From Isosphaera pallida ATCC 43644 (GTDB taxonomy: Bacteria > Planctomycetota > Planctomycetia > Isosphaerales > Isosphaeraceae): DNA of 64,000 bases. Location: NCBI RefSeq assembly GCF_000186345.1, contig NC_014962.1, positions 744,001 through 808,000 of the forward strand, given 5' to 3'. Shown here one piece after another: positions 8,994 to 31,949 of the stretch (position 1 is the first letter of the stretch; each line of letters begins with the position of its first letter). Made by a program: the position numbers and the translations under genes. The notes under the pieces were generated by a model. That model was given only the letters and a program-made list of their open reading frames with translations. It searched no databases and was not told the DNA's origin.

Positions 8994-11900
8994 ATGTTGG
9001 CCCTTTGGACTTGGGGGGGGAAATTAGTGACGGCGTTGGCCTTAGCGGGGACCCTGACTGTGAGCGTCGCGCTCGCCGCCTCGGAGGCCTTTGCCGCTCC
9101 TCTTCCAGAACCTCCGCCGATCGTGCGCTCCGTCGAAGTTCGAGGCGAGGCGATGGAGGACCGTGTCGCCCTGGTGATCCGCTACGAGATCGCCATCCCG
9201 GATCCCCGGCGGTCTTACTGGGCGGTGATCCGGCTCGATGGTCGGGTGCTGGAGCGAGTTTACGAAGGAGACCGCGATCTCGCTGCTCGGGTCGGAACCG
9301 GCGACGTTTGGGAAGTCGAAATCCCAGCGCGAACACGAACCGATCCCGACCACGTCGCGGACGCGACCCCCAACGACATGTCCACCCAGCCCGCCTCGAC
9401 CTGGTCCACCGTGACGGTCACCGTCGAATTGAATGCGCCGACCCGGCTGGTGGCCGAAGGTCGGGCCCTCGATTTGGCGATCCCTGAAGCCGCCATGACC
9501 CGTCTGGATCTCACGGTGCCAGGTCGCATCGCCAAGGCGGTGACCAGCGATGGCCAACCCTTGCCTTTCACGATCCAGGAACCCATCCCGACGACCCCGA
9601 CGACTCCGACTTCTCCCGACGCCCCGGCCGTGTCGCCCACCCCGGACGAGGCCCCCGCCGAGCGTGCGACCAGTCGGTTGACCGCCCGCCTAACCCCCCG
9701 CGCTCGCTTGGAGGTGCGCTGGTCCACCCGGGACGATTCCAGCCGCAGCGCCCCGGTGCGTCTGGCGGCGCGGGCTTTGGTCGAGGCGACCTTGACTGCC
9801 ACCTCGTGCCGCGCCTTGGCCACCTTTGAGATTGGATGCCTCAGCGGCGCCCCGGAAGTCCTGCGGTTCGACCTTGATCCCGACCTGGAGTTGCTTTCGG
9901 TTCGCCTTGATGGTCAGACGATCGCCCGCGCTCCCCGCGTCGAATCCACTCCCAACCCGAACGATCCGGTCGCCAAGTCGTCCAATCGGATCGAGATTCG
10001 TTTGCCCGAGCCGATGTTGCGGGGGGGACGCCGGGTGGTGGCGTTGACGGTGCGTCGCCCGTTCGTCAAAACACCGGTCGCCGACGCGGGCGGACCCTCC
10101 CCCGCGGCGGAGGGGTCCACCACCTTGCGAAGCGAGTTGATCCTCCGATTGCCGCGTCCAGTCGAAGTGCTGGACCTTTCGGGCAGCCTCGCAGTCAATC
10201 GCGGCGAGGATTTGTGGTTTGAGTTACGCCCGCTTCAGGGACTCAGGGTGATCGACCCGGCCACTGAACTGCCGCCCGAGTTGAAGTCGCCCGAGACTAA
10301 CCTGGGAGCCTTCCGGTTCGATGAACCGTTCGAGATCGCCGTGACCGCTCGACCCGTCCCGGCCCGCACGCTGGTTGAAACCGCCTCCACCCTGACGATT
10401 GGCCGCGAACGTCTCGCCTGGAGCAGCCGGGCCACTTTGGAAATGGTTCAAGGAGGGCTCTCCGGAGTGACGATCGCCTTGCCCGAAGGATTCCAACCCG
10501 AGCGGGTCGGTCCCTCGGAAATCGTCCGCCGCTGGTCGCTCGAGACCAGCGCGACCGGATCGGACGGACAACGCGGCGGCGCGCGAAGTCCGCTCGTCGA
10601 GGCTGCGGCCTCCCCCAACGGGGTCTCCCGGATCGAACTAGAGTGGGTCACAGGGTCCGGGCGGGACCGCTCGGGCGGAGTTTCTCCGGAATCGCGGCAG
10701 CGTCAGGTCGAATGGCAAGGACACATGCCCCGTCCCGACTCCAGCGCCATCCCACTGCCGTTTTGGACGGGGCCGGGCTTGATCTCGCGGGGAGGCCGTT
10801 TGCTACTGGTCGCCGAACCCGGCCTGGACCTCATCTGGAACGATCCCGACGGCACGTCCGGGTTCGTCGAGGAATTCACCTTTCCCGCCAACTGGCCGGG
10901 GCCGCGTCCTCCGGCGGATCGCCGCGTCATCCTGCTTCGACACGACGGCCCCGCGCGTGTCGTGAAAGTTGGGTTGCGGACACGTCCCCCTCGCTTGGAA
11001 CTGGATTCCGACATCCGCGCCCAGGTCGATCCCCAAACAATCCGCTGGACTCAAACCCTCAACATCCGCAGCCAGGGGGAGGGTTTGACCGAGCTGAATT
11101 TGAGCGTCCCCCACGAGTTGGTCGAAGCGATCGAGTTTCGACCCCCCTCGGGAGTCCGCTTGGAACACACGCCGGATCGCACCCGCACCGACGCGACGCG
11201 GGAGAACGCGACCGCCACCAATTCCTCGGCCTCCTGCGTGACACCGATGCGTCTGGAGTTCGCCGCGCCCGCGATTGGCGAGGTGAGCGTGCGTTTCGAC
11301 GCGGTTTTGCCTTGGGAGTCACCGTTGGAGCCGGGCCGCCCGCGTTCGTTGGTCGTGCCGTTGATCAGGGGATGCCACGCTGACGTAGTCGAAGAACGGC
11401 TCGCCGTCGAACTCGATCCTCGGTTGCGCGGACGGCTCTCCGCTCCCTTGACCACAACCCCCGCGGGTTGGCGAATTGAGACTCGGCAAGGAAACGAAGG
11501 CGACCCCGCCCGTGGCCATTTCCCTGTGTCACCGCCGTCTTCGGGCTCCGACGAGATAGGCCGCGTTTCGGTGGAACCGAGCGCGTCGTTCCTATTCCGA
11601 AGGGGACGATGGACTCTGCGGCCCTCGTCCGAATCCCCCTCCGAATCCTCTCGCGAAGACCATCTCGATCCACCCCCACCGCAGTTGATGATCGAATTGC
11701 CTCAACCAGCCGAATTACCGGCCGTTCGGATCGAGCGTTGCGATATGCGTCAGGCCGAACGCAGCGACGGTGTGTTGTGGTGGTCGATGCGTCTCACGAT
11801 TACCAGTCACCCGGGGACGATCGAGATGATCTTGCCTCTTGGTTCGCAACCGCGGCGCTGCGAGGTGGCGGGGCGGACAGTTGGTCCGGAGCGGGTCGGG

Positions 11901-16914: not shown

Positions 16915-17865
16915 TTAGCCGATCACCAGAGCGTGCGGCATCAGGTCGCGGATGGCCTGCAAATCGTCGGCCTTTCGACGCAGATGATAAATGATGAAGC
17001 GCTCCAGACGTTGACCCAACCCGGAACGCGCGATCGCCGCGGCCCCGGCGAAACCAATTGAAGTGGAGGAGAGATTCAACCCGCGGAGGTTATTGAGGTG
17101 AACCGACTGAGCCAGCGCCTCGGCGGCGGCGAAATGAAGCGGGTTGGAGCTGAGGTCCAGTTCGACCAAACGCACCAGGTAGGACTCCTGAGCCAAAATC
17201 CGCGCTGCGTCGTCGCCGGCTCCGACCCGGTGCAAACCCAGACGGGTCAATCCCGCCAATCGCGGAGACGACGCCAGAAGCTGGATTCCCGAACGACCAA
17301 GAGGGTTGGACCGCAACTCCAACTCCCGGAGTGCGCCCAGGTGGGGAGAGCGTGTCAGGTGGGAGACGCTGGATCCCTCCAGACCCTGCTCCGACAGATC
17401 CAGCGCACGGACCCGAGCTAGTGTGGGCGAGTCCGCCAAACGTCCCAAATCCTTGGCCTCCAGATTAAGGAAGCGAATCTTTTCGAGCGGGGCCAGGCGA
17501 AAGACGTCCTCAGCGACTTCCAGAAAGTCCGAGACATGAACAAAAGTGGCTTCACGAACCATACCACGGTCGAATCCGCCCCAGATAACTCGTCCGCCCA
17601 GATCGGGCAGGTCCTCCAGGGGGGACTGACGGTGAATCGCTTTGAGTTGGCTTTCGCGACGTTTGAGGGCAGCGCGTCGGGGGTGGGTGTCTGCCAACGC
17701 GGCGGCTTCAAGTTGCACCCGGATCAACTCAGCGCGCTCGGAGTGGCCGCGTTCTTCCAACCAGTCGGCGTAGATCAGGACCGGGCCATCATCGTCGGGC
17801 GCGTTACGGATCGCTTCGATGAAGGGTTCGCAATCAGCCAAGACCTCCCGCCATTCGTGCGACAT
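16915..17865 (-). CDS. leucine-rich-repeat protein with N-terminal repeat-companion-like domain
   Basis: 316 residues from the ATG at 17865. The first 60 residues (FIEAIRNAPDDDGPVLIYADWLEERGHSERAELIRVQLE) match my memory of the TIGR02996 repeat-companion domain, which in planctomycetes sits before leucine-rich repeats. From about residue 130 there are LRR-like units with LxxLxL patterns: VRALDLSEQGL, LRELELRSNPLG, LTRLGLHRVGAG, LVELDLSSNPLH and LRGLNLSSTSIG, each near 25-30 residues (ribonuclease-inhibitor-like length). It has no signal peptide, so it is probably a cytoplasmic protein-interaction scaffold. It is convergent with the preceding exported-protein gene and lies 283 bases downstream of the vWA-like gene on the same strand. 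Membership of the adjacent gene array is possible but unproven. Confidence 0.8.
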   Translation of the reverse strand: MSHEWREVLADCEPFIEAIRNAPDDDGPVLIYADWLEERGHSERAELIRVQLEAAALADTHPRRAALKRRESQLKAIHRQSPLEDLPDLGGRVIWGGFDRGMVREATFVHVSDFLEVAEDVFRLAPLEKIRFLNLEAKDLGRLADSPTLARVRALDLSEQGLEGSSVSHLTRSPHLGALRELELRSNPLGRSGIQLLASSPRLAGLTRLGLHRVGAGDDAARILAQESYLVRLVELDLSSNPLHFAAAEALAQSVHLNNLRGLNLSSTSIGFAGAAAIARSGLGQRLERFIIYHLRRKADDLQAIRDLMPHALVIG

Positions 17866-18148: not shown

Positions 18149-19792
18149 TTACAACCAGTCGTTGAGCCATTCCCTGAGGGTGTGTTGCCACTGTTCGAGG
18201 ACTGAGGCGTCGTCGCTTTCGGACGTGGTCAGTGAACCGTCGGCCTGGGAACGCAGGGGAACTGGACCCGAGACGATCAGGCGACGGCGAATCACGCTGT
18301 CGCGGGTGACCGAGGAGGAGCCTCCCAACGGCGTGCCCAGCGCGATGGGCGCGTCGGGATCGTTGGGGGTGGGGTCGGAGCAGCCTAGGGTCCAAACCGT
18401 GACGAGGCTGCGGCGGGCCGCCTCGTCGATGTGTGCGACCAGTGCCGGGATGGGGCGGGGGGCAGCGAAGATCACGGTGCGGTTGGCGATCTGATCGCGG
18501 AGCAACCGCGCGAGCAGCAAACGTTCCTGGTCCAGAGGGTCGGAGCCGTCCTCGGTGAGGGGCGGGATGACCTCAAAGACCAACGATTCCTCTCCCAACC
18601 GCTCCAGAGCCGCGCGAATTGTGGCAACCAGGAAGGCCAGCAGGAGAATGATTCGTTGACGGGGTGATCCGGGATCCTTGATCCGCGCTCGCGTCAGGTC
18701 GGTCCGCAGCAACACGAAGGTGGCGCGATGACGACGATAGAAGGCGTTTTCGTCCCGCGCGTAGTACAAAAGCTCATCCCGGACAAATTTGATGTCGAAC
18801 AGGTCGGGGCGGGGGGTCTTGGAATCCGGGGGCTCCATGAATGCCAGTTGCGAGTGGAGCAAACTTTCCAGCGAACCGCGGTTGGAAAGTGAGGCGAAAC
18901 CGCCGACCGGGTAGGCGTCCTCTTCGAGCAAGCGGGTGGCGACCCGACGGATGGAGCGGGAGGGTCGGGGTGGATTCGTATGGAGGAAGTTGAGAAACTG
19001 CTGGATCATCGCTACGGTTTGACGCAGGGCGATCCGCTGCCCGAACTGTTCCAGAGCGGTGCGTTCTTCCAATTCGAAGAGGTCTTCAGGGGCCAGAACC
19101 TCGCCCATGTCGCGGATGGCATGGGTGAGCGTATCGAGTTGGCGGGCCTCCTCGGCCCATTCGTGGGCGTCGGCGTTGGGGTCGTCGCTGGGTTCCAGGG
19201 CGGTGTCGAGCAGATCGCGCACAATTTCGTTGGGCAGTCCGGCGAGGCTCCGAAGCGCAGCGGGCGAGAGGATTGGTCCCTGGATACCGGCCCGTTCGAC
19301 GATCCGCGCAATCAGATAGGCCACCCCTTTGACCCGGTCGGCCTCTGGGTAATGGCGAACCGCTTCGGCCCCGCGTTGGAAGGTGGGATCGGCCAAAAAT
19401 TTGCCAATCACCAAATCGTCGTAGCGGCGGATCAATCGGTCGTAGAAGGGGACGAGGGCCGTGTAGGAAGGGGAGGGGGACGCGGGCGTAAGCCCGGCGG
19501 CATAGTGACTGGGGGGGCGGTCGGACGAGGACGAGGCTTCGGGTTCGTCGGTACCGAGAATGAGATGTCCGAGGTCGGCCACGAGATTGATGGGCGGTGG
19601 GGATTCTCCCGAGGCGGTCATTTCCAACGCCCAGCTTAAGGCGTGTCGAGCCGAGGTGGGCGATGGACGGGCGATCCGCTGCTGTGCCAAGCCCCGCACG
19701 AGAACCCGGCGCGCCTGGTCGGGTGGCAGCGGTCCGGTTGAAACGCGGGCTGGCGGGGTCGGATGAGCTTGGTGGGGCGTCGCGGTCGTCAT
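18149..19792 (-). CDS. vWA-like protein of the MoxR/FtsH array, metal site degenerate
   Basis: 547 residues, cytoplasmic, no signal. The N-terminal half is Pro-rich and then helical, with FYDRLIRRYDDLVIGKFL and an acidic helical stretch (DPNADAHEWAEEARQLDTLTH). From about 330 the sequence LFDIKFVRDELLYYARDENAFYRRHRATFVLLRTDLTRAR looks like the first strand of a von Willebrand A domain, at the place where vWA domains carry DxSxS. Here it reads D365-L-T-R-A, so the metal-dependent adhesion site is altered. Helices and strands of an alpha/beta fold follow (QRIILLLAFLVATIRAALERL, SLVFEVIPPL). It lies 75 bases downstream of the MoxR-type ATPase gene, the usual pairing of MoxR with vWA partners, where the vWA protein links the ATPase to a substrate. 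Confidence 0.65.
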   Translation of the reverse strand: MTTATPHQAHPTPPARVSTGPLPPDQARRVLVRGLAQQRIARPSPTSARHALSWALEMTASGESPPPINLVADLGHLILGTDEPEASSSSDRPPSHYAAGLTPASPSPSYTALVPFYDRLIRRYDDLVIGKFLADPTFQRGAEAVRHYPEADRVKGVAYLIARIVERAGIQGPILSPAALRSLAGLPNEIVRDLLDTALEPSDDPNADAHEWAEEARQLDTLTHAIRDMGEVLAPEDLFELEERTALEQFGQRIALRQTVAMIQQFLNFLHTNPPRPSRSIRRVATRLLEEDAYPVGGFASLSNRGSLESLLHSQLAFMEPPDSKTPRPDLFDIKFVRDELLYYARDENAFYRRHRATFVLLRTDLTRARIKDPGSPRQRIILLLAFLVATIRAALERLGEESLVFEVIPPLTEDGSDPLDQERLLLARLLRDQIANRTVIFAAPRPIPALVAHIDEAARRSLVTVWTLGCSDPTPNDPDAPIALGTPLGGSSSVTRDSVIRRRLIVSGPVPLRSQADGSLTTSESDDASVLEQWQHTLREWLNDWL

Positions 19793-19867
19793 AGGGTCGA
19801 GAGTCGCAGGGGAGCGGAAGCGGAGGCCGGGTGGATCGCGCTCGTTGAGTTGCGTCGGAAGGGATTT

Positions 19868-20929
19868 TTAGAGTTGATCGCCCAAGAGAATGGGAATCTT
19901 TTCGCGGAGAAGTTCCATCTCCTGATGGGTTTCGCCTAGATAGGCCAGCAACCGCAGGTCGTCCATGCTGACGACCCCACCGGAGAGCAGCCAGGAGCGA
20001 ACCCGGAAAAGTTTGTAAAGTTTGACGAGTTTGCGGTCACTTATAAAGATGCGGTCCTCGCGGACCAAGGTGCGGACCAAGCGTTGGAATTCGCGGAATA
20101 CCTCGTCGGGGAAGAACAAGGCGCGATCAGCCGAGCCAGATTCCAGACGGTCATCACGGCGTCCGAACTGCTGGATTAGGTGGCGGTGCGCTTTGAGTAA
20201 GTCGGCCAGACTGCAGTGACCCTCGGCCCAGGGTTTCTTGTTGAGTCCTTTGTAGACTTCAGAGCGCAGCCCAAAGTCGATCAGGTCGGCGAAGTGGTCC
20301 TCCTGCACCGAGCGGCTTTCGGCCTTGAGGACAAAGCGATCCTTAAGCGCGGCGAGTTCCCCCTGCTCGGGAACCTCGTTGGTCGCCGCCAACAGTACCT
20401 TCAAACGCACTGGCCGCGGCGCGCCATCCTGGTAAAATTTCCGCTCGTTGATGATGGTCAAGAGAATGTTCAGAATCGCCGAATTGGACTTGAAAATCTC
20501 GTCCAAAAAGACCAGTCTGGCAGTGGGCAGCTTGCCCTGTTCCCGACGGATGTAGCGTCCTTCACGCAGTTCGTTGATGTCAATCGGGCCGAGGATTTCC
20601 GACGGTTCGCTAAAGCGAGTGAGCATATACTCGAAATAGTCCTCATCGGCGATGCCCAGGGCGTCCTTGAATTTGAGGACGAGGTCGCTTTTGGCGGTGC
20701 CGGGGGGGCCGACGATCAAGAGGGGTTCCTGGGCGATCGCGGCGACTGTCATGAGGTCGATGAGCTCCTGCTTGGCCACGAAGAAGCGGCCCAGCGAGAT
20801 CCTCATACGGTTGATTCGGTCGCGCACTTGGTCGATCTCGTCGGCGAGCTGCTTGGGGGTAAGTTGGTCGATGGCCTCCAGGTCGTCGGTGGCCGCGGTG
20901 TGGAGGGGGGCAGGGTGAGTCTGAGCCAT
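19868..20929 (-). CDS. MoxR-family AAA+ ATPase
   Basis: 353 residues. AAA+ core with Walker A GPPGTAKS (74-81), Walker B LVFLDEIFK (139-147, Asp143/Glu144), sensor 1 AATNEVPEQGEL (181-192) and the Arg of ALKDRF (198). The sequence between the Walker motifs (YMLTRFSEPSEILGPIDI) is the MoxR/RavA pattern, and the substitution AKS for GKT is usual for that clade. The start at 20929 gives MAQTHP; the frame is open back to 20986. MoxR ATPases act as chaperones with vWA proteins, and a vWA-like gene follows directly. Upstream, four tandem GAATG units (20961-20980) lie in the leader. The sensor-2 region and C-terminal lid helices look ordinary, so ATP hydrolysis is expected. Confidence 0.9.
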   Translation of the reverse strand: MAQTHPAPLHTAATDDLEAIDQLTPKQLADEIDQVRDRINRMRISLGRFFVAKQELIDLMTVAAIAQEPLLIVGPPGTAKSDLVLKFKDALGIADEDYFEYMLTRFSEPSEILGPIDINELREGRYIRREQGKLPTARLVFLDEIFKSNSAILNILLTIINERKFYQDGAPRPVRLKVLLAATNEVPEQGELAALKDRFVLKAESRSVQEDHFADLIDFGLRSEVYKGLNKKPWAEGHCSLADLLKAHRHLIQQFGRRDDRLESGSADRALFFPDEVFREFQRLVRTLVREDRIFISDRKLVKLYKLFRVRSWLLSGGVVSMDDLRLLAYLGETHQEMELLREKIPILLGDQL

Positions 20930-20960
20930 CGTGGTTGACGCCGTATCGTGGGCAAGCGAT

Positions 20961-20980
20961 GAATGGAATGGAATGGAATG
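20961..20980. repeat. tandem pentamer, four GAATG units
   Basis: Four exact copies of GAATG in a row, ending 32 bases upstream of the MoxR start codon, inside the 5' leader on the minus strand (where the unit reads CATTC). Copy number could vary by slippage, which would change leader length but not reading frame. Confidence 0.9.
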
Positions 20981-21034
20981 GACCAAGTGTCAAGAGAATG
21001 CGTCCACACGCGGGGTTGATGGCACGTCCGTGGT

Positions 21035-24000
21035 TTAGGAGGATGCGTCGGCGGCCAACGCCGCGCGGGTGTCGCGGTGGATCCGCAAACGCAGCAGGTA
21101 TTCCTCTTCTTCGACGAATCGTCGCGCGCGGCTCGAGAGCTGGATCGATTCGCTGGTGAGGCTCAAGACCGCCCGTTCGATCAATTGGAGTCGCGCCACC
21201 GAGAACAGGTCACGCGACGCCTTGAAGTCTTCGATGCCTTCGAGGTTGCTGAATAGCCGGGTGGCCCGTTCCAGCGCGTGGTCCTGGCTGGCGGCTCCCA
21301 GGGTTTCTACATAGCGGAGTGCAAGAAGATTTTGATGAATATGGGTTTGGCGGCTGATCGCGGTCGCTTCGCCGATGAGGACGCGGCTATGCAGCATCGC
21401 CTCGGCCTGGTCCAACACCGGCCAGGCGGGAGATTCATCCCCGCGGTGCAGGCGGGTTTGCGCCACACCCAGCAGAATCCGCAAGACTGCCGAGGTCAAG
21501 GGTGGGTTAGAGCGACGCTCCGGCGCGTCGTAACGGAACCGCGTGGGATCGCCCGACTCGGGGACCAGGACCAAGGCGTGAATCCGGTCACCCATCTCAT
21601 CGACGCGGCCCAGCGCGCCGATCCGTCTGAGACCTTGGAGGGCTCGGACGATTGCCGGTTCCAGCTGCGTGATGGTTTCGCCCGAGTGCGACTCGATGAG
21701 GGCCAGCAGATGGTCGGAAAAGAGCCTGGTGGGTTCGGCCAGGTCGAAGTGGGCCGCCAGGGCAATTCCACGCTCCAACAGTTCGCCGGTGGGACCCGGC
21801 GGGGCGTTGAGTCGGGTCTCCTCCACGAGTTTGCTCAACTCGTGGAGGCAACGAGTGGCGAAGCGTTCACCCAACCGGGTCGCCTGACTCAGCGCAAAGC
21901 CCAGAGCCAAGCGGCGGGCGGTGATCTCCCGTTTGGTTTCTGGGTCGTCGAGCAACTGGGTTAGTTCGGTTTCCAGCGCATCGAGATCGGCGAGGATTTG
22001 CAGTCGGGCCAGACGATTCTTGATGCGTTGATCCTGACTAGCTCCTAGGCTAATTGCGTCGGTGCCCTGACGCTGGTGGAGGTAGGGGTCGAGTTTGCCG
22101 TGAGGCACCAGGATCATGGTTTCGCGTTCGAGGTAGCCGATTTTGGTGCGTTCGGTGGGATTGAGCCGATTGAGGCGTTCGGTTAGTTCGGGGGGGTACT
22201 CGCGGACGATCTTGCCTTCCAGCGCTTGGAAGACGCGATGGCGGTAGGCGTCGCGGAGCCATTGGCGGGTTGGTTCAGCGGCGGGGTTGGCCAGGGGTTG
22301 AAGACGGGCGAGCAGTTCGTGAACCCGGCTGGCTTCCCCTAGGCGGGCGTGGCCGAAGGCCAAAATCAGTTCGACGAGGTCTCCTTCGCACGCTGGCGCG
22401 ACGGGATATTGGTCGCGTCCGCCGCCGGGAGTCGAACCTCCTGAACGGCTCGCTGGGGGGAATTCGCTTCGGTCGCGTCCTCGGAGTGGACGTTCCCGAC
22501 GTTGCGACGACTCGCCGCTGGTTCGGGAGGGGGGCGACGAGGCGGTGGCAACGGGCTGACCGCCACGGGACTCCGGTTGCATCCAGCGGCGGATGATGTC
22601 GGCTAGGTCACGGAACCGATCGGCGCTCAGCGGGATGTCGAAGATAGCCGCGGACGAGTCGGCCCGCGTGTGGTTTGCGCTAGAGGACTCGATTGGGCCG
22701 GCTTTGAGGAAGGACGGCAGGTCAAGATCCCAGCGGGGACCCTGTTGTTGCAACCGCAGCAACAGGCGGTCGCGGGCGCGGGCTAGGGTCAGGGCGTCGT
22801 GACCGGAAAGGCGGGCCAAGGTTCGCCAGGCCATCCACGCGCAGCGAATGGAGAGTAAATGCTCATGGCGACGGAGGAAGTCGGCCCAGACGGGCCGCAG
22901 TTCGTCCAACTGCGCTGGGGCGAGCGGCGACTCGGGATGTCCCAGGGCGATCAACCCCACGATCGCCTTGCGGACCTCGTGTTGGTTAGGCTGGGGCTGG
23001 TTCAGAAGAGTCCGGATCGTTTCCAGAACAGCCGAGGGGTCGAGTTGATCGTCCGCCGCCGAGCCTTGGAGGTTCAGGTTGGCGAATTCGACCGCGATCC
23101 AGCGGGACCACCAGGAGGCGGGAGCGGGTTCCGACCACCAGAGGGCTTGGCTCCAGCAGAGCGAGGCATCGATGGGTTCGCCTAGGGCGGTTTCCAGGTT
23201 GGCCAATTCGACCCAAAGCGGGATGCGTTCCGGGTCGTCAGGCGGGGTGTCCTGGTTGCGGAAGCGGGTCTGGATGTCGTCGAGCCGTCTGCGAAGCTGG
23301 AGGCGTTCCTGCTGGTTCGCAACGGAGGCGGTGTCGAAGCTCGCCGAGGCGGCGGGGTGGGATTCTAGGGGCGACGCGGCGGATTGACTCGGGCCAGGGG
23401 GGGGAGTTTGAGGGCGTGGTTCATTGCGCGGTCGAGTCTGAGGGGGACGTTGAGGTTCGCGGGGCGCGGAAGGCGAACCAACGCTGGTGGGCTTGCCGTC
23501 GCGGCAGATGAACCGATCGAACTCGAACAGCGTTGTTTCATTCCACGCCTGAAGGAGGTTGCGATCGCGGTCCAGCAGATAATCGACCCACTTTTCCAGC
23601 GGGGTCAAGGCGACATCGGCGATCGACTCCACCACGAACGGTTGGGAGAACGAGGATCCGTGACGCGCTGGGCGAGCCGCGTGGTCCTCGCCTTGGGCCT
23701 GCTCAATCGTGGTCAGCCAGTGGAGGCGGTCGGGATCGTCGGCCAGAAGACGGGTGAGTTGATCCCGTCTCAGAGGCGGATGGATTCGCATCCCGACCGG
23801 AACGAAGAGATGATTGAGTCGCAGATAGGGGCGATGAGCCTCAGCGCGGATGGCCAGGGTGGGTGGATTCGATTTGGAGGGCCGCGCCTTGAGCAGGACT
23901 AGGGGTTGGTCGCGGTCCTCGGTTTCGACCACGGCGAAGAGCAGGCGGCTTATGAGTTCGTCGGAGGAGCTAGCGACCAGTGATTCGACGACATCCAGGG

Positions 24001-24916
24001 CGTGGTGGCGGATGACCCAGAGTTCGGCGGGGTCGGCGGATCCTCCCCGGCACAACCGCAGCGGCACTGGGATGCGGGGCAGGATGGCCTCGGGGTTGGC
24101 GGGGATGGGGTGGTGAACCGGTGGGGCGGGCAGTTGGTAGGTGATCGCCTCTTGGATATCGCGGAAAGCTCCGGGTGGCACGACCCGCCAGTGGTCCGGT
24201 GGGTCGATCAGCAAAAGGCCGCCTTCGGGGGGAGTGAACCGGTCGATCCACGGATGGGTGTGACCCCAACGAGTCCAAACCCCTGGGCGACGCTCCAAAT
24301 AGGCGGCAATGGTGGGGGAGGCGTTGTCGTTGCGGTTCGAGTTGGTTTCCAGGGCCCGAAGCAGGGTGTAGTAAGGGGGGCCGACCACCTTGAGCAGCGC
24401 AATCGCATCTTGAGGCGCGCCGGAGTCGGGGACGCCCAGCGCAGTTGGGGGCGTGATCAGGCGATAGGTGATCCGATTGCGTCCCAAACGGAGCAGTTCA
24501 TTGACCACGACGCCGAGACGCTGGCTGGGCAGGGTCAGAAGCGCTGTGAGTCCCTCGACGCCCAGAGCGTGTTCGTCTTGGGGGGAAGGGATCGTTTCCA
24601 GAAGGGGACCCCAGTGAGGCAGGTCGCGCTGGGGCTGGGCGGGCGGTTTGTGACGGCTGAAGGCCACCCCCAGCTTCTCCAAATCGTCGCGGAGGGAGGG
24701 TGTGAAGTCGTTGGCGTGGGTGGTCCAGAGTCTCAAACCGGTGGACTCCGGTTGGCTGAGGCGGGAATGGCCTGAAGATGAAGGTGGGGGAGACGGACTG
24801 GGACTCTCGATCCGCTCGGCCAAAACACGGTCGAGCGCGACGGGGATGGGAATCAGTCCACCGGTCAGCGCCAGACGCAGGGTGGCCAGGTTGGGGAAAG
24901 TCAGGCAGAGCGACAT
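21035..24916 (-). CDS. 1293-residue third-component protein of the MoxR/FtsH array
   Basis: No signal peptide is evident. The N-terminal ~470 residues are mixed alpha/beta with motifs such as LKVVGPPYYTLLRALE, VPLRLCRGGSADPAELWVI, YLRLNHLFVPVGM and HPPLRRDQLTRLL. I recall these as features of third components in MoxR-vWA systems (bpX-like), but this is not verified. A Pro/Arg/Gln-rich linker (about 480-530) leads to a helical region with TPR-like pairs (ELANLETALGEPIDASLCWSQAL), a second Ser/Arg/Gly-rich linker (about 790-840), then a long alpha-solenoid to the C-terminus. ATG 24916 is used; a TTG at 24934 would add 6 residues. The gene lies between the 92-residue gene (66 bases away) and the MoxR gene (105 bases). 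It is probably the specific adaptor or substrate arm of the system. Confidence 0.6.
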   Translation of the reverse strand: MSLCLTFPNLATLRLALTGGLIPIPVALDRVLAERIESPSPSPPPSSSGHSRLSQPESTGLRLWTTHANDFTPSLRDDLEKLGVAFSRHKPPAQPQRDLPHWGPLLETIPSPQDEHALGVEGLTALLTLPSQRLGVVVNELLRLGRNRITYRLITPPTALGVPDSGAPQDAIALLKVVGPPYYTLLRALETNSNRNDNASPTIAAYLERRPGVWTRWGHTHPWIDRFTPPEGGLLLIDPPDHWRVVPPGAFRDIQEAITYQLPAPPVHHPIPANPEAILPRIPVPLRLCRGGSADPAELWVIRHHALDVVESLVASSSDELISRLLFAVVETEDRDQPLVLLKARPSKSNPPTLAIRAEAHRPYLRLNHLFVPVGMRIHPPLRRDQLTRLLADDPDRLHWLTTIEQAQGEDHAARPARHGSSFSQPFVVESIADVALTPLEKWVDYLLDRDRNLLQAWNETTLFEFDRFICRDGKPTSVGSPSAPREPQRPPQTRPRNEPRPQTPPPGPSQSAASPLESHPAASASFDTASVANQQERLQLRRRLDDIQTRFRNQDTPPDDPERIPLWVELANLETALGEPIDASLCWSQALWWSEPAPASWWSRWIAVEFANLNLQGSAADDQLDPSAVLETIRTLLNQPQPNQHEVRKAIVGLIALGHPESPLAPAQLDELRPVWADFLRRHEHLLSIRCAWMAWRTLARLSGHDALTLARARDRLLLRLQQQGPRWDLDLPSFLKAGPIESSSANHTRADSSAAIFDIPLSADRFRDLADIIRRWMQPESRGGQPVATASSPPSRTSGESSQRRERPLRGRDRSEFPPASRSGGSTPGGGRDQYPVAPACEGDLVELILAFGHARLGEASRVHELLARLQPLANPAAEPTRQWLRDAYRHRVFQALEGKIVREYPPELTERLNRLNPTERTKIGYLERETMILVPHGKLDPYLHQRQGTDAISLGASQDQRIKNRLARLQILADLDALETELTQLLDDPETKREITARRLALGFALSQATRLGERFATRCLHELSKLVEETRLNAPPGPTGELLERGIALAAHFDLAEPTRLFSDHLLALIESHSGETITQLEPAIVRALQGLRRIGALGRVDEMGDRIHALVLVPESGDPTRFRYDAPERRSNPPLTSAVLRILLGVAQTRLHRGDESPAWPVLDQAEAMLHSRVLIGEATAISRQTHIHQNLLALRYVETLGAASQDHALERATRLFSNLEGIEDFKASRDLFSVARLQLIERAVLSLTSESIQLSSRARRFVEEEEYLLRLRIHRDTRAALAADASS

Positions 24917-24981
24917 GGGTATGAGAATGAGCAAATCGGATAATGAAGAAAAGCTGTGTCAGCGACGGGTGGCCTTTGGGG

Positions 24982-25260
24982 TCAGGCTCCGCCGCCCGTC
25001 GAGATCGCCCGGCGTTCGCTTTGGCCGGACTCCTCGATCCGATCGACCGGGCGGGTTGGTTCGGGGTCGATCCGTTCGACGACGATTTCGCCCACCTCGG
25101 CGGCGCTCAAGACCCCGCCCTCGATCAGCCGATTCACCAACTTCTTGTGCTGTTCCTCATGTTCATGCGGCAGGGCGTCGGGGTCCGACTCCAGTTTCAC
25201 CAGGATGTCGCGTTTGCCGGTATCAGGGTTCCAGGTGAGCTGAATCCAGAGGTTGGCCAT
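24982..25260 (-). CDS. small conserved-looking component of the FtsH/MoxR array
   Basis: 92 residues starting MANLWIQLTWNP; an AGGA lies 11 bases before the ATG at 25260. Compact and highly charged, with strands WIQLTWNP and RDILVKLES, a His/Glu cluster LPHEHEEQHKKLV (29-41) and helix NRLIEGGVLSAAEVGEIVVER, ending in a disordered tail. The HEHEEQH cluster could bind metal but is not a known catalytic motif. The gene lies 105 bases after the FtsH-like gene and 65 bases before the 1293-residue gene. I recall small proteins of this type accompanying FtsH-centred ternary systems, but I cannot fix the family name. Confidence 0.65.
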   Translation of the reverse strand: MANLWIQLTWNPDTGKRDILVKLESDPDALPHEHEEQHKKLVNRLIEGGVLSAAEVGEIVVERIDPEPTRPVDRIEESGQSERRAISTGGGA

Positions 25261-25365
25261 TTGAGGGACAGTCCTGGCGAGGATAAGGGTTGGGACGGAG
25301 CAACGCTTCCACAAGTTGCCTACTGGCTTGGGATCTTGGTCAGGGCCCGGCGAAGACGGCGGGGA

Positions 25366-27618
25366 TTAGGTCGGGCTGGCAACGCGAGCCAAAACCGAAG
25401 GCTTGTCGGGGACGAGTTGGGCCAAATCGCGGGCGCTGAGGACTTTGCGTTCCAAAAGCAAGTCGCGCAGCGTGTCCACCAGAAGACGATGTTCGGTGAG
25501 AATCGCCGCGGCTCGGATCCGCTGGCTTTCGAGAATCGTCGAGACCGCCTGATCGAGCCGTTGGCGGTCGGCTTCCGAGAGGTCCGGGATGCGTCGTGGT
25601 TGGTCGTCGGCCATGAAGCGCCGCACCCCGGCCGAATCGTCCATGCCGAACTCCTCTACTAAGGCGCGAGCGATGGCGGTGGCGCGGCGGAGGTCTTCGG
25701 ATGAACCGATCGATAAGTCGTCAAGCATCAGCCGCTCCGCCTCACGCCCGCCCATGAGCACGCAGATGTCGTCCAACAGGCGACCTCGGGTGATGATATG
25801 CTTATGCGCGTGATCGAGATGCTTGACGTGACCTAGCGAGCCGGCCAGGTCGCCGCGGATTGAGATGCGTTCGATCGCCGGCGCGTGGGGGCAGAATAGC
25901 GAGACGACGGCGTGGCCGCATTCGTGGACTGCGACCACCTTTTCCTCCTCGGGGGTCAGTTCGGGGCGTTCGACCCATTCGAGGAGGACCGCTTCGAGGT
26001 CTTCGGGGGTGGTGGGGGTGTCGGGGCCGGTTCCTAGGCGGAGGCGTCGTCGCGCCAGGGCGCGGCCCAGCGCCTGGATGTGGTCACCGCTGTAGCGGCT
26101 GGGGGGATCGACGCCGGGCACGAGGTCGCCGGTGATTCTGACCGCCGCCTCCAGCGCAGCGTCGGTCATCCGTAGGTTCATAGCGCGGTCGTGAACCTTC
26201 CAGATCGCTCGCCGATCCTCCGCCGAGGGATAGGGGATGTGCAGGTGGTACTCGAAGCGCCCCGGACGCAGTAGCGCTGGGTCGAGCGATTCGGCGAAGT
26301 TGGTGGTGCCCACCACGAACACAAGTTCTTCGGCGTGGAAGCCGTCCATTTCGGTGAGCAGTTGGTTGACCATCGAGTGTTCCACGCCCGAGCCTTCGTA
26401 GCTGCCCCGGCGCACTGCGAAGCTGTCCAGTTCGTCGAAGACGATCACCGCGGGGGCCGACTCGCGGGCTTGGCGGAAGACGCGCCGCAGATTTTCCTCC
26501 GACTCGCCGACCCATTTGCTTTTGAGTTCCGGTCCCGAGACGATGGTGACCGCCGCGCCCAACGCGGTGGCGATGGCTTTGGCGAACAGGGTTTTGCCGG
26601 TGCCGGGCGGCCCGTGCAGAATGATCCCTTTGGGGATCAACCCTTCGAGGCGTTTGATCGCGTCGGGGTCGTCGAGTTGGTCGCGACGGGCCAAGGGGTC
26701 GAGAATCTCGCGCTGGATGCGTTGTTTGACCTTATCGTAACCACCAATGTCGTTATAAAGATCGACCTCGGGGATTTCCAGGGACGAGCCGACGGTGGAC
26801 TGGCGAATTTGGGCCAGCACTTTGCGGGGCGATTCGGGATAGTCCGGTCCGTCGAGGGTCGAAAGCAATCGCCGCAGCCGCACGGCGTTCATACCCGAGA
26901 CGTGCTTGTACAAGGTCCACGGGTTGAACTCACGGCCGAATTTCCGCGCTTCGCGGAGCGTGACCAGATGGCGGAGGCGGTCGCGGGGCAGCCCAAGCAG
27001 GTGGATCCGACGGGGGAAGACATTTTCAATGACTTTGGGCAGCGGGAAGGAGGGGTCTTTGAAGCCCAGGGCGACCAGGTTGGGGTTTTCGTAGAGCAGG
27101 GTGACGGCTTCGCGCGCCTCGCCGGTCAGTCCCCCGGCGGAGGTGGTCAAGAGATCGAGATGAGGAAGGACCAGCACCCGAGCTTCCATCGCGCCGCGAA
27201 CCGCGTCGCGCAGTTGCTGGAGCATCGTGCCCAGCACACCCTGGTTGAAGCCACCGGTGTGGCTAGCGGAGGGGGACGGGCCACCCGCGGCGTTGCGTCC
27301 CGGTTGGTTGTCGGGTGGCGTGGCTTGCTCGCGGCCATCCAGATAGAGGCAGCGAAGGTTGTGAGCTCGCAGGCGGTTGCGAATCGCCATGTAGAGGAAC
27401 GGCACAAGTTCCTTATCGGCTTCAATGAGTACCGGCAGACCGCGGCGCAACGAGTCGGCAGTGTGGGCCAGCGGTTCGGGGTAGGCGGCCTCAACCGCTT
27501 CGGGCAGGTCGAGTTCGGTGGGCAGTTCCGACCAGGGAACGATCACCGAGCTGCCGGTTGGGCGAAGTTCGGCGGTTTGGGAGGTCGATGATTCAGAGGC
27601 GGAACGGGGAGGAGCCAT
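25366..27618 (-). CDS. soluble FtsH-like AAA+ zinc metalloprotease
   Basis: 750 residues. Residues 1-270 form a region with a degenerate AAA-like layout (VLVLPHLDLL in place of a Walker B, no Walker A). The active AAA+ domain has Walker A GPPGTGKT (336-343), the pore motif KSKWVGESEEN (367-376), Walker B VIVFDELD (391-398), sensor 1 VGTTN and arginine fingers in LLRPGRFE (451, 454). The M41 peptidase domain follows, with zinc motif HECGH (565-569) and the distal acidic ligand in GSSEDLRRAT (Asp642). No transmembrane segment is visible, unlike housekeeping FtsH, so it is predicted to be cytosolic. It should unfold and degrade proteins. In context it is the protease core of a ternary system with MoxR and vWA components. 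A candidate promoter with 8-bp direct repeats lies about 100-150 bases upstream. Confidence 0.92.
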   Translation of the reverse strand: MAPPRSASESSTSQTAELRPTGSSVIVPWSELPTELDLPEAVEAAYPEPLAHTADSLRRGLPVLIEADKELVPFLYMAIRNRLRAHNLRCLYLDGREQATPPDNQPGRNAAGGPSPSASHTGGFNQGVLGTMLQQLRDAVRGAMEARVLVLPHLDLLTTSAGGLTGEAREAVTLLYENPNLVALGFKDPSFPLPKVIENVFPRRIHLLGLPRDRLRHLVTLREARKFGREFNPWTLYKHVSGMNAVRLRRLLSTLDGPDYPESPRKVLAQIRQSTVGSSLEIPEVDLYNDIGGYDKVKQRIQREILDPLARRDQLDDPDAIKRLEGLIPKGIILHGPPGTGKTLFAKAIATALGAAVTIVSGPELKSKWVGESEENLRRVFRQARESAPAVIVFDELDSFAVRRGSYEGSGVEHSMVNQLLTEMDGFHAEELVFVVGTTNFAESLDPALLRPGRFEYHLHIPYPSAEDRRAIWKVHDRAMNLRMTDAALEAAVRITGDLVPGVDPPSRYSGDHIQALGRALARRRLRLGTGPDTPTTPEDLEAVLLEWVERPELTPEEEKVVAVHECGHAVVSLFCPHAPAIERISIRGDLAGSLGHVKHLDHAHKHIITRGRLLDDICVLMGGREAERLMLDDLSIGSSEDLRRATAIARALVEEFGMDDSAGVRRFMADDQPRRIPDLSEADRQRLDQAVSTILESQRIRAAAILTEHRLLVDTLRDLLLERKVLSARDLAQLVPDKPSVLARVASPT

Positions 27619-27716
27619 CGCGTCATGGTTCCCAATCGGGTCAGCGGATCGGGGAAACTGGCTGGGGGAGCGAAGGATTCGTCGGTGGGATCGCTATTGC
27701 CTGGAGAAGCGAGAAG

Positions 27717-27745
27717 AGTATACTAATTACCCATAAAAAGGTGAA
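27717..27745 (-). promoter_or_regulatory. candidate sigma70-type promoter of the FtsH-like gene
   Basis: On the minus strand, -35 TTCACC (27740-27745, 4 of 6 to consensus), a 17-base spacer, then -10 TATACT (27717-27722, 5 of 6). The region is clearly more AT-rich than its surroundings. It lies about 100 bases upstream of the FtsH-like start codon. The -35 box overlaps the first copy of the GTGAATCA repeat. Confidence 0.5.
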
Positions 27746-27766
27746 TCAACGTGAATCAGTGAATCA
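27741..27766. promoter_or_regulatory. three direct copies of GTGAATCA, candidate operator
   Basis: GTGAATCA occurs exactly at 27741-27748, 27751-27758 and 27759-27766 (TGATTCAC on the minus strand). The copies span the -35 region and the 20 bases upstream of the candidate FtsH promoter, a typical place for a repressor or activator to bind side by side. No regulator can be assigned; the degenerate NtrC-like protein encoded at 30441-31949 is one neighbour worth considering. Confidence 0.6.
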
Positions 27767-27850
27767 GGTTGGACGATAGGGAGCGGGGTGGCGTGCTGGA
27801 GCGTGTCGAGAGAGTGGGGGTAGTTACGGTTCCAGCCCGCCGTTGGGAGA

Positions 27851-28441
27851 TCAGACTTCGAGGACGATGGTAACCGCGCCGGCGTCAGGATTCTCGGAAA
27901 TTTCCTTGATTCGGCCCATTGCGGCGGCTTTGCGTTTGAGGGCTTCGACGGTCACCCGATTGACCACTTGATCGAGTTCGATCCTCAGATCGCCAAGTTC
28001 GCGTTCGAGTTGATCGGTGACTTCGCGTTGCAGTTGGCTGGACTGCTTGCGAGCGGTTTCCTCCAATTCCTTGAGGAGATCCGCGCGGAGTTTCCGAGTG
28101 AGGTCGAGTTCGCCCCGCTTACCGAGATCGGTGTCGGTTATGCCGATCTTGCCGCCTTCGAGTTCGGTTTCCCGTTCCCGTTCCAGACGCACGACCACCT
28201 CGCCGGAGCGGGGATCAATCTCGACGACCAGTCCATCCTCGCGCGCTCGCGCCAAGGGTCCGTGGGGTTGCGTTGGGTTTGTCGGGACGAAGCCTCGGTG
28301 TGCGAGTTCGTCAGCTAGGAGCGAGGCCATCTGGTCACGTGGTAGGAGGTCGAGGAGCTCCAAGCGTGTCGAGACCCGGTCCTCCCCTTTGAGGGTGGTT
28401 CGCAGACATTCCTTGACTTCGATGCGATAGGCTCGACTCAT
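27851..28441 (-). CDS. FtsH-array component, MSRAYRIEV-type protein
   Basis: 196 residues from the ATG at 28441 (the frame is open to 28501). The N-terminal part reads MSRAYRIEVKECLRTTL, then LELLDLLPRDQMASLLADELAHRGF, then a strand pair LVVEIDPRSGEVVVRLERE. The second half is a long charged helix (LTRKLRADLLKELEETARKQSSQLQREVTDQLERELGDL, given in pieces: ADLLKELEETARK, LQREVTDQLEREL) likely to form a coiled coil, and the last strand is GAVTIVLEV. No enzyme motif is present. From memory it resembles a domain defined as an FtsH ternary system component (an 'X1'-type domain), which would make it a marker of the system. It lies 232 bases upstream of the FtsH-like gene. Confidence 0.65.
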   Translation of the reverse strand: MSRAYRIEVKECLRTTLKGEDRVSTRLELLDLLPRDQMASLLADELAHRGFVPTNPTQPHGPLARAREDGLVVEIDPRSGEVVVRLERERETELEGGKIGITDTDLGKRGELDLTRKLRADLLKELEETARKQSSQLQREVTDQLERELGDLRIELDQVVNRVTVEALKRKAAAMGRIKEISENPDAGAVTIVLEV

Positions 28442-28558
28442 AAACAGGTCTCGGCTCAACGCGACGGGTTGGGGGGATGAGGTTTGGGTGCGTGCGGGCA
28501 AAAGGCAAGGCGAGGCGAGGCGATGGGAGCAGGGGCGGCGAAGATCAGGAGATCGCGA

Positions 28559-29728
28559 TCATAACGTGGATCGACCGGCGGATTCCGCCGGGTTGGATCG
28601 CGGCGGCGTGGTGGAGAGGCCGACGGCGCCGAAGTCGAGTTCGCGGAGCAGATTGGCGGCGGTGGCGACTAGGGAATCGCCTTGTTCCTCCTCCCAGCGG
28701 GCTTTCCAAAATTGCGAGGCGGTGTAGTCGTCGTCGAGGTAGCCGACGCGGCGGGCCTGAGCGTTCCAGTGTCCCAGACGCTGCAGCGCGTGGGGGAGGA
28801 CCAGTAGCTGTTCGTAGAGGGCCGCGCGATCGGCCAGACGCAGCCCGCTGAAGTCGAGTTCCCGGCCCCACCAGCGGGGCGAGTCAGCCACTGGCAGCAC
28901 CTGGCGCGCGATCGGCAGCAGGTACAATCCCAGATCGCGCCGGTTGGCCTGGTCAAGGGCGTCAAGGAACCCATCGAGGGTTTCCCGTTGCCGGGTCGCG
29001 AGTGTCTCGACCTCATGGCGTCGAATTGAGCGGTGTTTGACCCATTCGGCTTGCACTCCGTTGCGGATTGCTTCGTCGCGGAGCAGTTCCAGCAATGCGC
29101 TGAAGTCGGGTTGGGCAAGGGCCGCGTGGAAGTCGGGCAAGGGGATTGGGGTATCGTCGTCGGGGGGGCGATCGAACGCCTGAGGGATGACCCAGCGGGT
29201 GAGAGGCTGGGCCAAGATCAGGGGTTGGCCGGCCCAATCACGAATTCGCGCTTGGTTGGGGAAGGTTTTGAAGGCCAGCCAGAACACCAGTTGGTCCCCC
29301 AAGGGGAGGGGACGAACGGGGAGTTCGTTGCCGAACCGCCAGGGGTGGCGGTTGGTTCCAGGCGGGCGTGGTTCATGGTAGCTCAGATGAACCAGGAACT
29401 CGAAGGTAGCTTCGCTGAACCGCAGGACTGGCAAGGACGGAAGCTCCCATCCTCGACTCATCCGACTCTTGCCGGTGTTGGGGTTCCAAACGGGGCGTTG
29501 TTGCCAGGCAGCGCGTGCCAACAGGGCCACGAGTCCTTGACTGAGGGTTTGTTTGACCAGTTCGACTGCGTCGGTTCCGAAGCAACGGGGGGGGGCAATC
29601 TCTTGATCGAGGAGGCCGAGGACACGATGAACCTGACCGACCCCTACCAAAGCGCGCGCGACCAGGACCAGTCGTTGTTCCACGACGGAGACGACACGGA
29701 CGCAAGGCGATTCGGGTGAGGCGCTCAT
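28559..29728 (-). CDS. unknown protein at the head of the FtsH/MoxR array
   Basis: 389 residues from the ATG at 29728 (the frame is open to 29767). Mostly helical and acidic/aromatic, with no signal peptide or membrane segment. Recognisable stretches are VSVVEQRLVLVARALVGVGQVH near the start, HPWRFGNELPVRPLPLGDQLVFWLAF in the middle, and WWGRELDFSGLRLADRAALYEQL and FWKARWEEEQGDSLVATAANLLRELDFG near the end. No catalytic motif was recognised. It is the first gene of the run of same-strand genes that includes the FtsH-like, MoxR and vWA-like genes (117 bases before the 196-residue gene), so it is probably a further component of that system. Confidence 0.6.
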   Translation of the reverse strand: MSASPESPCVRVVSVVEQRLVLVARALVGVGQVHRVLGLLDQEIAPPRCFGTDAVELVKQTLSQGLVALLARAAWQQRPVWNPNTGKSRMSRGWELPSLPVLRFSEATFEFLVHLSYHEPRPPGTNRHPWRFGNELPVRPLPLGDQLVFWLAFKTFPNQARIRDWAGQPLILAQPLTRWVIPQAFDRPPDDDTPIPLPDFHAALAQPDFSALLELLRDEAIRNGVQAEWVKHRSIRRHEVETLATRQRETLDGFLDALDQANRRDLGLYLLPIARQVLPVADSPRWWGRELDFSGLRLADRAALYEQLLVLPHALQRLGHWNAQARRVGYLDDDYTASQFWKARWEEEQGDSLVATAANLLRELDFGAVGLSTTPPRSNPAESAGRSTL

Positions 29729-29841: not shown

Positions 29842-30444
29842 TTATGCGTCTTCCAGAGTGAGGCTAGTAGGCCTGAGGGGATAAGGCGGGCGGGCGGCCG
29901 CGGCCTCGGCCAATCGTTCCAGCGCCTCCTCGGATGTGGAGGCGACGAGTAGGCGGGAGCGTTGCGTGGCGGAAACGAAGCCCGCTTCGGAGGCGCGATC
30001 CAGGAAGCCGATCAGGGGATCGAAAAAGCCGGCGATGTTGAGCAGGGCCAGCGGTTTGTGATGAATTCCCAGCACGCCCCAGGTCCAGACCTCGAAGAGT
30101 TCCTCCAGCGTGCCCAGGCCACCTGGAAGGGCGAGGAAGGCGTCGGCCAATTCGCTCATGAGGGCTTTACGCTCGTGCATCGAGCCGACGATCCGCAGAT
30201 CATTCAAACGGTCGTGGGGAACCTCCCGACTGAATAGGCCGCGCGGCAGCACGCCGATGACCTCGCCGCCCTGCTGCAGCGCTGTATCGGCGAGGATTCC
30301 CATGAGGCCGACCCGCGTACCTCCGTAGACCAGTGTGTACCGCTTCGCCGCCAAGCGTTCGCCTAGCCGTCGCGCCTCCTGGTGAAAGACCGGGTCCCGA
30401 CCCGGCCGCGATCCACAAAAGACGCATACCCGTTGAATGCTCAT
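29842..30444 (-). CDS. LOG-family nucleoside-5'-monophosphate phosphoribohydrolase
   Basis: 200 residues with the LOG signature: VCVFCGSRPG at the N-terminus, YGGTRVGLMG, and the active-site PGGLGTLEELFEVWTW, preceded by MHERKALM. The family cleaves the N-glycosidic bond of nucleoside monophosphates (AMP or cytokinin riboside monophosphate) to release the base and ribose-5-phosphate. The closest everyday annotation is a TIGR00730 Rossmann-fold protein. Its ATG overlaps the stop of the upstream regulator gene (ATGA, 30441-30444), so the two are translationally coupled. It ends 113 bases before the FtsH/MoxR array. Whether it acts in nucleotide salvage or belongs to the array is unknown. Confidence 0.9.
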   Translation of the reverse strand: MSIQRVCVFCGSRPGRDPVFHQEARRLGERLAAKRYTLVYGGTRVGLMGILADTALQQGGEVIGVLPRGLFSREVPHDRLNDLRIVGSMHERKALMSELADAFLALPGGLGTLEELFEVWTWGVLGIHHKPLALLNIAGFFDPLIGFLDRASEAGFVSATQRSRLLVASTSEEALERLAEAAAARPPYPLRPTSLTLEDA

Positions 30445-31949
30445 TGTGATTCGTCGCTTTTCCGGTCGGAAACTTGGGATTGGGATGAGGTGGTTTCATC
30501 AGCGTGGTGGTGGTTGTCAAGACACGCGGAGCCTGCCGCGGGGTCGCAGCCGGTTTCACGCAACCGCCGCAGGAACCGCGCTCTTGACAGTCCCAGCCAG
30601 GCGGCGGCTTTGGATTTGTTGCCGCGCGCCAAGGTTAGCGCCTGGGTCAGCCAATGACGCTCGACCCATTTCAAACGCTCCTCGAGCGGGACTGGCTTGA
30701 CTTGGGGCGGAGGATGCGCCGCGCCCAGAGCTCCTTGAATCGAACGGGGCAGGTCGGCCGCGCTGATCGGATCGCCTAAACCGGAGCGTCGGGCCGCTTC
30801 GATGACGTGGAGGAGTTCCCGCACGTTGCCCGGCCAATCGTAGGAGGTTAGGATCGTCAGCGCCTCGGTGTCGAAGCCGGAGGGACAACGTCCCGGCGCG
30901 CGGTTAGCCCGCTCTAGAAGGGCTGAGGCTAGTGCCGGCAGCTCGTCGAGCCGTTCCCGCAAGGGTTCTAGAGGGATGACGAGGGTGGAGAGGCGGGCCA
31001 GTAAGTCGTCGCGCAACCGTCCCTCAGCGACCGCTTGGGCGGGGTCGGTTCGGGTCAGGCTGATGAAACGGGCGTTGATCGCCTCGAACCGCGCGAACTC
31101 GTTGACCAGTCGGGCTTGAAGATCGCGGGCGAGGGCGGCGGGTTCGATCAGCAGGATCGTCGCGCCCCGCGCGATCGGCGGCGGGGAGCAGGGCATGGCG
31201 GGCGAGTCTGGTGGCGGTCCTAACAGGCTTTGCTCCATGAGATCGGTGGGCAGGGCGGTCGCGTCGAAGGGCAGCAACGGGGTCTTGTTGCGGGGAGCGG
31301 GGGACAGCTCATGAATCGTGCGGGCGACCAGGCGTTTGCCCGTCCCGGGCTCGCCCACGATCAGCACCGAGGCCGAACACGCGGCTGCGACTTCGATGCG
31401 ACGGCGCAGCAGGTCGAACCGTGGTCCCGCGCCCACGAGACCGCGGGTGGCTTGACGTTGTTCCCGTCGCGCCCGAGCTTCGGCGGCGAATTGCTGGATG
31501 GCCTCGGCGACGGCCTGTTCCGCGGGGTCGTGATGGGCGGTCGCGTGGCTCGGATCCAACGGGGGTACGGGGCGAAGAATCGCTAGCCAATGGGACCACG
31601 CGCCGGCTGAGTCGCGGAGGGGAACCCAAGTGATCAGGCGGTCGTGAGCGTCGCCGTCGCGGTCGGGAATCCGCACCCGCCGGGTTGTCGCCGCGAGGTC
31701 GGCTTGGGAGGTGTTCAGCCGGGGCGGGCTCAGACAGCGCGCTAACAGAACCAGGGACTCGTTGTCGTGGTGGAACCGCGGGCGGCAGCGCAAGTTCCGC
31801 GCGATTTCCCAGGGCCAGCCGGTCAGATCTTCCCACACCGGGTTGACCGCCACCAGCCGACCGGTTCGGGACACCACCGCGATGGGTTCGGAGGACCGGA
31901 TCAAGAGTCGCCCAAAGCGACCACCCAGCTTGCCACGACTTGACGACAC
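30441..31949 (-). CDS. PAS-AAA+-Fis regulator, degenerate NtrC type
   Basis: 502 residues from a GTG. The N-terminal PAS domain (IRSSEPIAVVSRTGRLVAVNPVWEDLTGW, residues 17-45) is followed by a helical linker and an AAA+ domain with Walker A GEPGTGKR (199-206). The family-specific parts are lost. No GAFTGA loop is present, and the Walker B segment reads TILLIEP (264-270) where NtrC proteins have LFLDEI, so the Asp is gone. The C-terminal parts are intact: YDWPGNVREL (370-379) and a Fis-type helix-turn-helix (LARGNKSKAAAWLGLSRARFLRRL, 440-463). ATP may bind but sigma54 activation is unlikely; it may instead repress or sense. It overlaps the LOG gene by 4 nt. Confidence 0.75.
   Translation of the reverse strand: MSSSRGKLGGRFGRLLIRSSEPIAVVSRTGRLVAVNPVWEDLTGWPWEIARNLRCRPRFHHDNESLVLLARCLSPPRLNTSQADLAATTRRVRIPDRDGDAHDRLITWVPLRDSAGAWSHWLAILRPVPPLDPSHATAHHDPAEQAVAEAIQQFAAEARARREQRQATRGLVGAGPRFDLLRRRIEVAAACSASVLIVGEPGTGKRLVARTIHELSPAPRNKTPLLPFDATALPTDLMEQSLLGPPPDSPAMPCSPPPIARGATILLIEPAALARDLQARLVNEFARFEAINARFISLTRTDPAQAVAEGRLRDDLLARLSTLVIPLEPLRERLDELPALASALLERANRAPGRCPSGFDTEALTILTSYDWPGNVRELLHVIEAARRSGLGDPISAADLPRSIQGALGAAHPPPQVKPVPLEERLKWVERHWLTQALTLARGNKSKAAAWLGLSRARFLRRLRETGCDPAAGSACLDNHHHADETTSSQSQVSDRKSDESQ

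Follow-up and report, generated by a model that had tools for sequence, protein, structure and literature searches.

A simple-type FtsH ternary array in Isosphaera pallida, syntenic across two phyla, is probably a regulated soluble protease

Isosphaera pallida IS1B, a filamentous gliding planctomycete of hot springs (PMC3072084), carries on the minus strand a seven-gene array in which an FtsH-like protease gene stands with MoxR and vWA-like genes, raising the question of what system these genes form and whether its role is defence or regulated proteolysis. The array runs from 29728 to 18149 in the window (the whole 64,000-nucleotide stretch of DNA analysed here), which lies on a contig of 5,472,964 bases within an assembly of 5,529,304 bases in total. 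An original prediction had interpreted these genes as an FtsH-MoxR-vWA ternary system whose components without family names might be new.

Using the ORF list and Pfam profiles, we found the FtsH-like, MoxR and vWA-like genes, the gene for a 1293-residue protein and three genes for small or medium proteins all on the one strand, just as they had been described (Table 1), in the order fvmX6, fvmX5, FtsH-like AAA-M41, fvmX3-analog, fvmX7, MoxR and ivWA. The ORFs of the three small or medium proteins span 402, 216 and 110 aa, and that of fvmX6, with which the core array begins in relatives, reaches 29767 if a GTG start is taken. Neighbouring genes are spaced 65-232 nt apart, and no minus-strand terminator-like site falls inside these gaps, in a scan that gave results at chance level, as did the promoter scan of the array.

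Table 1. Features of the array and its downstream neighbour, in window coordinates
Feature	Coordinates	Strand	Profile match	Length or location
fvmX6 (FtsH ternary system domain X6)	28559..29728	-	PF20004, E 5.6e-42	389 aa from ATG
fvmX5	27851..28441	-	PF20003, E 6.2e-48	196 aa
FtsH-like soluble protease	25366..27618	-	PF00004, E 6.6e-41; PF01434, E 1.7e-37	750 aa
fvmX3-analog	24982..25260	-	PF20002, E 1.1e-38	~92 aa
fvmX7	21035..24916	-	PF20005, E 1e-139	1293 aa from ATG at 24916
MoxR AAA+ ATPase	19868..20929	-	PF20030 (bpMoxR), E 9.8e-58; PF07728, E 8.9e-22	~353 aa
ivWA	18149..19792	-	PF19996, E 5.6e-142; PF19997, E 1.8e-143	547 aa
TIGR02996 + leucine-rich-repeat protein	16915..17865	-	TIGR02996, E 1.8e-17	283 nt downstream of ivWA

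Searching all seven proteins against Pfam returned a named FtsH ternary family for each (E = 1e-143 to 1e-38), and the reading as an FtsH-type MoxR-vWA ternary system thus stood, while its suggestion of new components did not: because every array protein matches a named family, the nameless components are already catalogued, the four in question being fvmX3-analog, fvmX5, fvmX6 and fvmX7. The families PF19996-PF20005 bear the names of FtsH ternary systems, a class described by Kaur, Burroughs, Iyer and Aravind in 2020 (PMC7159879). Since their scores lie far above those of planctomycete relatives outside the family, the I. pallida proteins are probably members of the Pfam seed alignments; the main text of that paper does not name Isosphaera.

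In the published description, the class MoxR often has a GxxxTAKS P-loop, the vWA protein is divergent with a helical N-terminal fusion and in some cases lost metal-site residues, the third component has two AAA domains of which the first is inactive and the second active, and the simple type has a standalone effector, either NEFF1 or a radical SAM protein with a peptide (PMC7159879). The I. pallida array shares the TAKS MoxR, the helical-N vWA, the tandem AAA with a dead first domain and the X-domain partners, and radical SAM genes are present in its relatives as in the class. It differs in that no NEFF1 or peptide-effector gene was found, either in the array or among the Pfam-scanned neighbours, and in having its radical SAM gene unlinked. 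The array falls outside the complex type and the beta-propeller class, with no complex-type genes (beta-propeller-vWA fusion, Ubl/E1/E2/JAB/caspase) in or beside it and no Pfam match to a beta-propeller family in the ivWA protein. Judged by its sequence, then, the array is a simple (helical-vWA) type FtsH ternary system.

The FtsH-like protein comprises a P-loop-less AAA domain (~33-280; the AAA fold is assigned following PMC7159879), a Cdc48/VCP-D2-like AAA domain (~280-500) and an M41 zinc peptidase domain (554-735). The features originally picked out in it were all confirmed, with a single P-loop, GPPGTGKT, at residue 336, the zinc site HECGH at residue 565 and no membrane segment (maximum KD 1.67 over 19-residue stretches). 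Among 75 homologues, each of at least 640 aa, HExGH is kept in all 75 and the first domain, itself conserved, is without a P-loop in all 75; a second zinc-ligand motif, SIGSSEDL, was found with its variants. The zinc site is thus intact throughout, a point that the published text on the class does not discuss. In pairwise comparison the AAA core is 50% identical to a VCP-like D2 domain and 41% identical to I. pallida's own FtsH, and its pore loop reads SKWVG where the housekeeping FtsH has MFVG. Core identity and pore loop together suggest a more apt description of the protein: a Cdc48-like tandem AAA with an FtsH-type peptidase fused to it.

The I. pallida genome holds two M41 genes, this one and the housekeeping FtsH (C2:118127), which share the M41 peptidase fold and HExGH; the housekeeping protein is membrane-anchored with one AAA domain, whereas the array protein is soluble with tandem AAA domains. 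Counting against a protease machine, the M41 domain of the array protein scores 129.6 bits versus 247 bits for the housekeeping FtsH. With the zinc site invariant, regulated proteolysis appears to be the best reading of the array's role.

The MoxR protein has the GPPGTAKS P-loop reported for it, at residue 93, and its match to the RavA-like NCBIfam model is weak and far below the model's curated cut-off. The ivWA protein consists of a helical N-terminal region and a vWA domain (the ivWA match spans residues 295-546 of 547), and alignment revealed that this vWA domain is missing the MIDAS DxSxS motif. As in RavA-ViaA, a MoxR ATPase therefore adjoins a protein with a helical N-terminal region and a vWA domain; unlike RavA-ViaA, the array's ivWA has lost MIDAS and the pair is coupled to a protease and a putative scaffold.

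Regarding the X proteins, which as Pfam members are ruled out as new families, fvmX5 is predicted with high confidence (AF2, pLDDT 95.6) to fold into a curved sheet plus a helix of 72 residues, in the order beta-alpha-beta-beta-beta, helix, beta-beta. Foldseek gave no clear PDB fold for fvmX5 (E 0.2 or worse), and the best VIA-align hit, KICSTOR (Z 8.4, rmsd 3.9, 115 aligned), stood among many unrelated helix-on-sheet folds and gave no assignment. The fvmX3-analog conserves an LPxEHExxH motif ahead of a variable tail (alignment of 67 homologues). For fvmX7 the model (AF2, mean pLDDT 76) predicts an alpha/beta N-terminal domain of ~450 aa, a disordered linker and an all-helical C-terminal solenoid, with TPR/HEAT-type structural matches restricted to the helical part; this modelled solenoid shape would be fitting for a scaffold role.

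We then asked how far the array is conserved. An alignment of the FtsH-like first domain against 84,980 species genomes revealed 148 relatives, and the 80 retained come almost entirely from Planctomycetota and Myxococcota; a genome scan with fvmX7 as a single protein returned none. Across evenly drawn samples of the phylum, fvmX7 was above cut-off in 8 and ivWA in 10 of 292 genomes. The order X6-X5-FtsH-X3an-X7-MoxR-ivWA recurs among relatives, including other families and another phylum: it is found headed by the radical SAM gene (rSAM) at 14 loci (12 Myxococcota-clade, 2 planctomycete), and the stretch X6-X5-FtsH is in order at 56 of the 74 loci with enough upstream DNA. The array could conceivably be two unrelated neighbouring operons, one an FtsH-like module and the other a MoxR-vWA module, each with its own function, as the modules do stand apart in planctomycete family f21, where the system genes are spread over several contigs, and at Archangium-type loci, which have rSAM-X6-X5-FtsH-X3an with no X7, MoxR or ivWA nearby. 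We consider this very improbable: the full order is conserved across two phyla and genomes tend to have both modules even where these are not linked, the FtsH-like gene being present in all nine tested genomes that hold ivWA, scattered family included. Thus the separate operons against which the original prediction was to be checked were not found, and the seven genes form one operon that is syntenic in relatives. Replacement of the f21 FtsH-like module by Ycf46-DUF1257-DUF2997 was likewise ruled out, with the FtsH-like gene in 6/6 f21 genomes tested.

Several loci depart from this layout. A conserved unnamed 85-aa protein follows the fvmX3-analog in nine reduced Archangium-type arrays (e.g., L138 6128-6382, L147 12361-12618, L150 11233-11490), fvmX7 is often tandem-duplicated in Gemmata-type loci (L081, L082, L089, L093, L131), and L053 (G046) is rearranged to FtsH, an X7-like protein of 917 aa, MoxR, ivWA, radical SAM and then fvmX5. 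One Comamonas-labelled record (L130) falls inside Myxococcus, is syntenic with M. xanthus and is probably mislabelled.

At 49 of the 74 loci whose upstream DNA is long enough, the first gene is an NrdG-like radical SAM gene. It is absent from the I. pallida array, where a LOG-type gene takes its place; the I. pallida homologue, of the same subfamily (C2:2508454-2509092; G000, L171; L173 about 9455-10114), lies 1.7 Mb away. It is 55% identical to the operon-borne protein and adjoins enolase and miaA, genes unrelated to the system, and we infer that it serves the array. In one Archangium MAG a calpain-family cysteine protease gene adjoins the radical SAM gene (L148 6258-7286).

Directly upstream of the radical SAM gene, 21 planctomycete loci carry RtcA (RNA 3'-terminal phosphate cyclase; PF01137, E down to 6e-73), on the same strand and 0-150 bp away or overlapping (L081 5451-6674, L113 6445-7512, L091 5781-7358 and 18 more loci), while the genes further upstream differ among them. 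The main text of PMC7159879 does not mention RtcA, and our literature search found no paper joining RtcA with MoxR. Such close linkage amid varying neighbours is a point in favour of a machine for RNA repair or translation stress, in which the protease or chaperone and RtcA would act on damaged RNA or stalled ribonucleoproteins. RtcA is, however, missing from all 19 Myxococcota-clade loci that have rSAM and a long enough upstream stretch, from 9 planctomycete rSAM loci and from the I. pallida locus, and because many, indeed most, of the 21 are close relatives, the independent linkage events are fewer than that count; we therefore hold this reading to be unlikely.

The class was proposed by Kaur et al. 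(PMC7159879) to act in conflict, and the array might accordingly be an anti-phage or abortive-infection system in which MoxR-vWA would provide a threshold and the protease would bring infected cells to death or arrest. In keeping with this, filamentous I. pallida suits the reported bias towards multicellularity, the system is patchy in its family (FtsH-like first domain in 3 and ivWA above cut-off in 5 of 45 genomes), and PADLOC pointed to a remote similarity, in AAA sequence, to anti-phage IetA. That match is limited to the common AAA domain, however; PADLOC holds no model for the FtsH ternary system, and across 114 neighbour proteins none of its families matched more than one. As with NEFF1, the array yielded no caspase, EAD or Ubl module. 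Its flanks are ordinary chromosomal genes, including trpE-like and F/V-type ATP synthase genes, with no tRNA or mobile gene found nearby, and no relative was found in virus contigs or plasmids. The FtsH-like tree mostly splits the two phyla (I. pallida is a long branch of unsure placement), pointing to largely vertical inheritance within Gemmataceae and Myxococcaceae. Taken together, a defence role seems somewhat unlikely, and the array resembles a regulated protease that is stably inherited more than it does a mobile island directed against viruses.

The DNA directly upstream of the array (window 29842-31949) carries, on the same strand, a LOG-type (PF03641) gene and a gene for a PAS/sigma-54-activator-like regulator. 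Downstream, the TIGR02996/LRR gene is a possible accessory of uncertain membership, separated from ivWA by a terminator-like site (in a scan at chance level). At Myxococcus loci a WGR-TIGR02996-LRR gene follows ivWA (e.g., L122 18171-19604), an adjacency that may be chance because genes of this kind may be frequent in the lineages concerned.

The best explanation in our view, with a probability of roughly 0.6, is that this simple-type FtsH ternary system is a two-motor, ATP-powered soluble proteolytic machine. The FtsH-like protein would assemble into a hexameric ring. There, the P-loop-less first AAA domain would play a structural role, the second, Cdc48-D2-like one would thread the client through, and cleavage would fall to the M41 domain. 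As dedicated ring partners we would propose fvmX5 and the fvmX3-analog, which are encoded beside the FtsH-like gene even in reduced versions, while fvmX7, with its long helical solenoid, may be a scaffold or client-recognition subunit. A MoxR ring and the MIDAS-less ivWA, in a RavA-ViaA-like arrangement, would load or remodel the fvmX7 scaffold, so that proteolysis would be confined to the assembled state, and the NrdG-like radical SAM protein, unlinked in I. pallida, might add a modification needed for maturation or switching. As no separate effector gene was found in the I. pallida array, the M41 site is most likely its executing activity. The parts may be coupled more loosely than in a single complex, given the Archangium-type arrays with no X7, MoxR or ivWA nearby.

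This proposed machine has a partial parallel in the Ycf46-DUF1257 (Ycf35)-DUF2997 module, where a tandem-AAA-like ATPase also sits beside two small proteins and DUF1257 has a strand/helix order similar to that of fvmX5; the module is without M41, MoxR or vWA. Profile comparisons of fvmX5 with DUF1257 (up to 57 fvmX5 sequences) and of the fvmX3-analog with DUF2997 were not significant (hhalign probability ~2% or lower), and the resemblance is suggestive in layout only. Clusters of Ycf46-like ATPase, DUF1257 and DUF2997 genes occur in Planctomycetota (L071 3552-5832, L070 3155-6700), the one at L070 with an NrdG-like radical SAM gene whose product shares 41% identity with its counterpart from the FtsH ternary operon, and some DUF1257 relatives match at the C-terminal end only (L064, L160, L161). 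More speculatively, and with doubt that it would hold in full, the whole class could be a bacterial Cdc48-like unfoldase-protease equipped with adaptors of its own, matured by radical SAM, gated in RavA-ViaA fashion, built to the chloroplast and cyanobacterial Ycf46-Ycf35 design and devoted in planctomycetes to RNA repair via RtcA and not to phage defence.

The class and its component families were already known, and the I. pallida array is another member. The class was put forward in 2020 from comparative genomics only (PMC7159879), and our literature search found no experimental study of it. What is added here is the gene order across phyla, the invariant HExGH, the Cdc48-like core, the unlinked radical SAM gene, the RtcA neighbour and the stable inheritance. 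As the operon is conserved in culturable Myxococcus and Gemmata-type bacteria, the class is testable, and these additions make for a sharper test of defence against regulated proteolysis: the M41 site, the Cdc48-like core, the radical SAM protein and RtcA lead to predictions of proteolysis, maturation and RNA repair that are unlike those of the phage-defence hypothesis.
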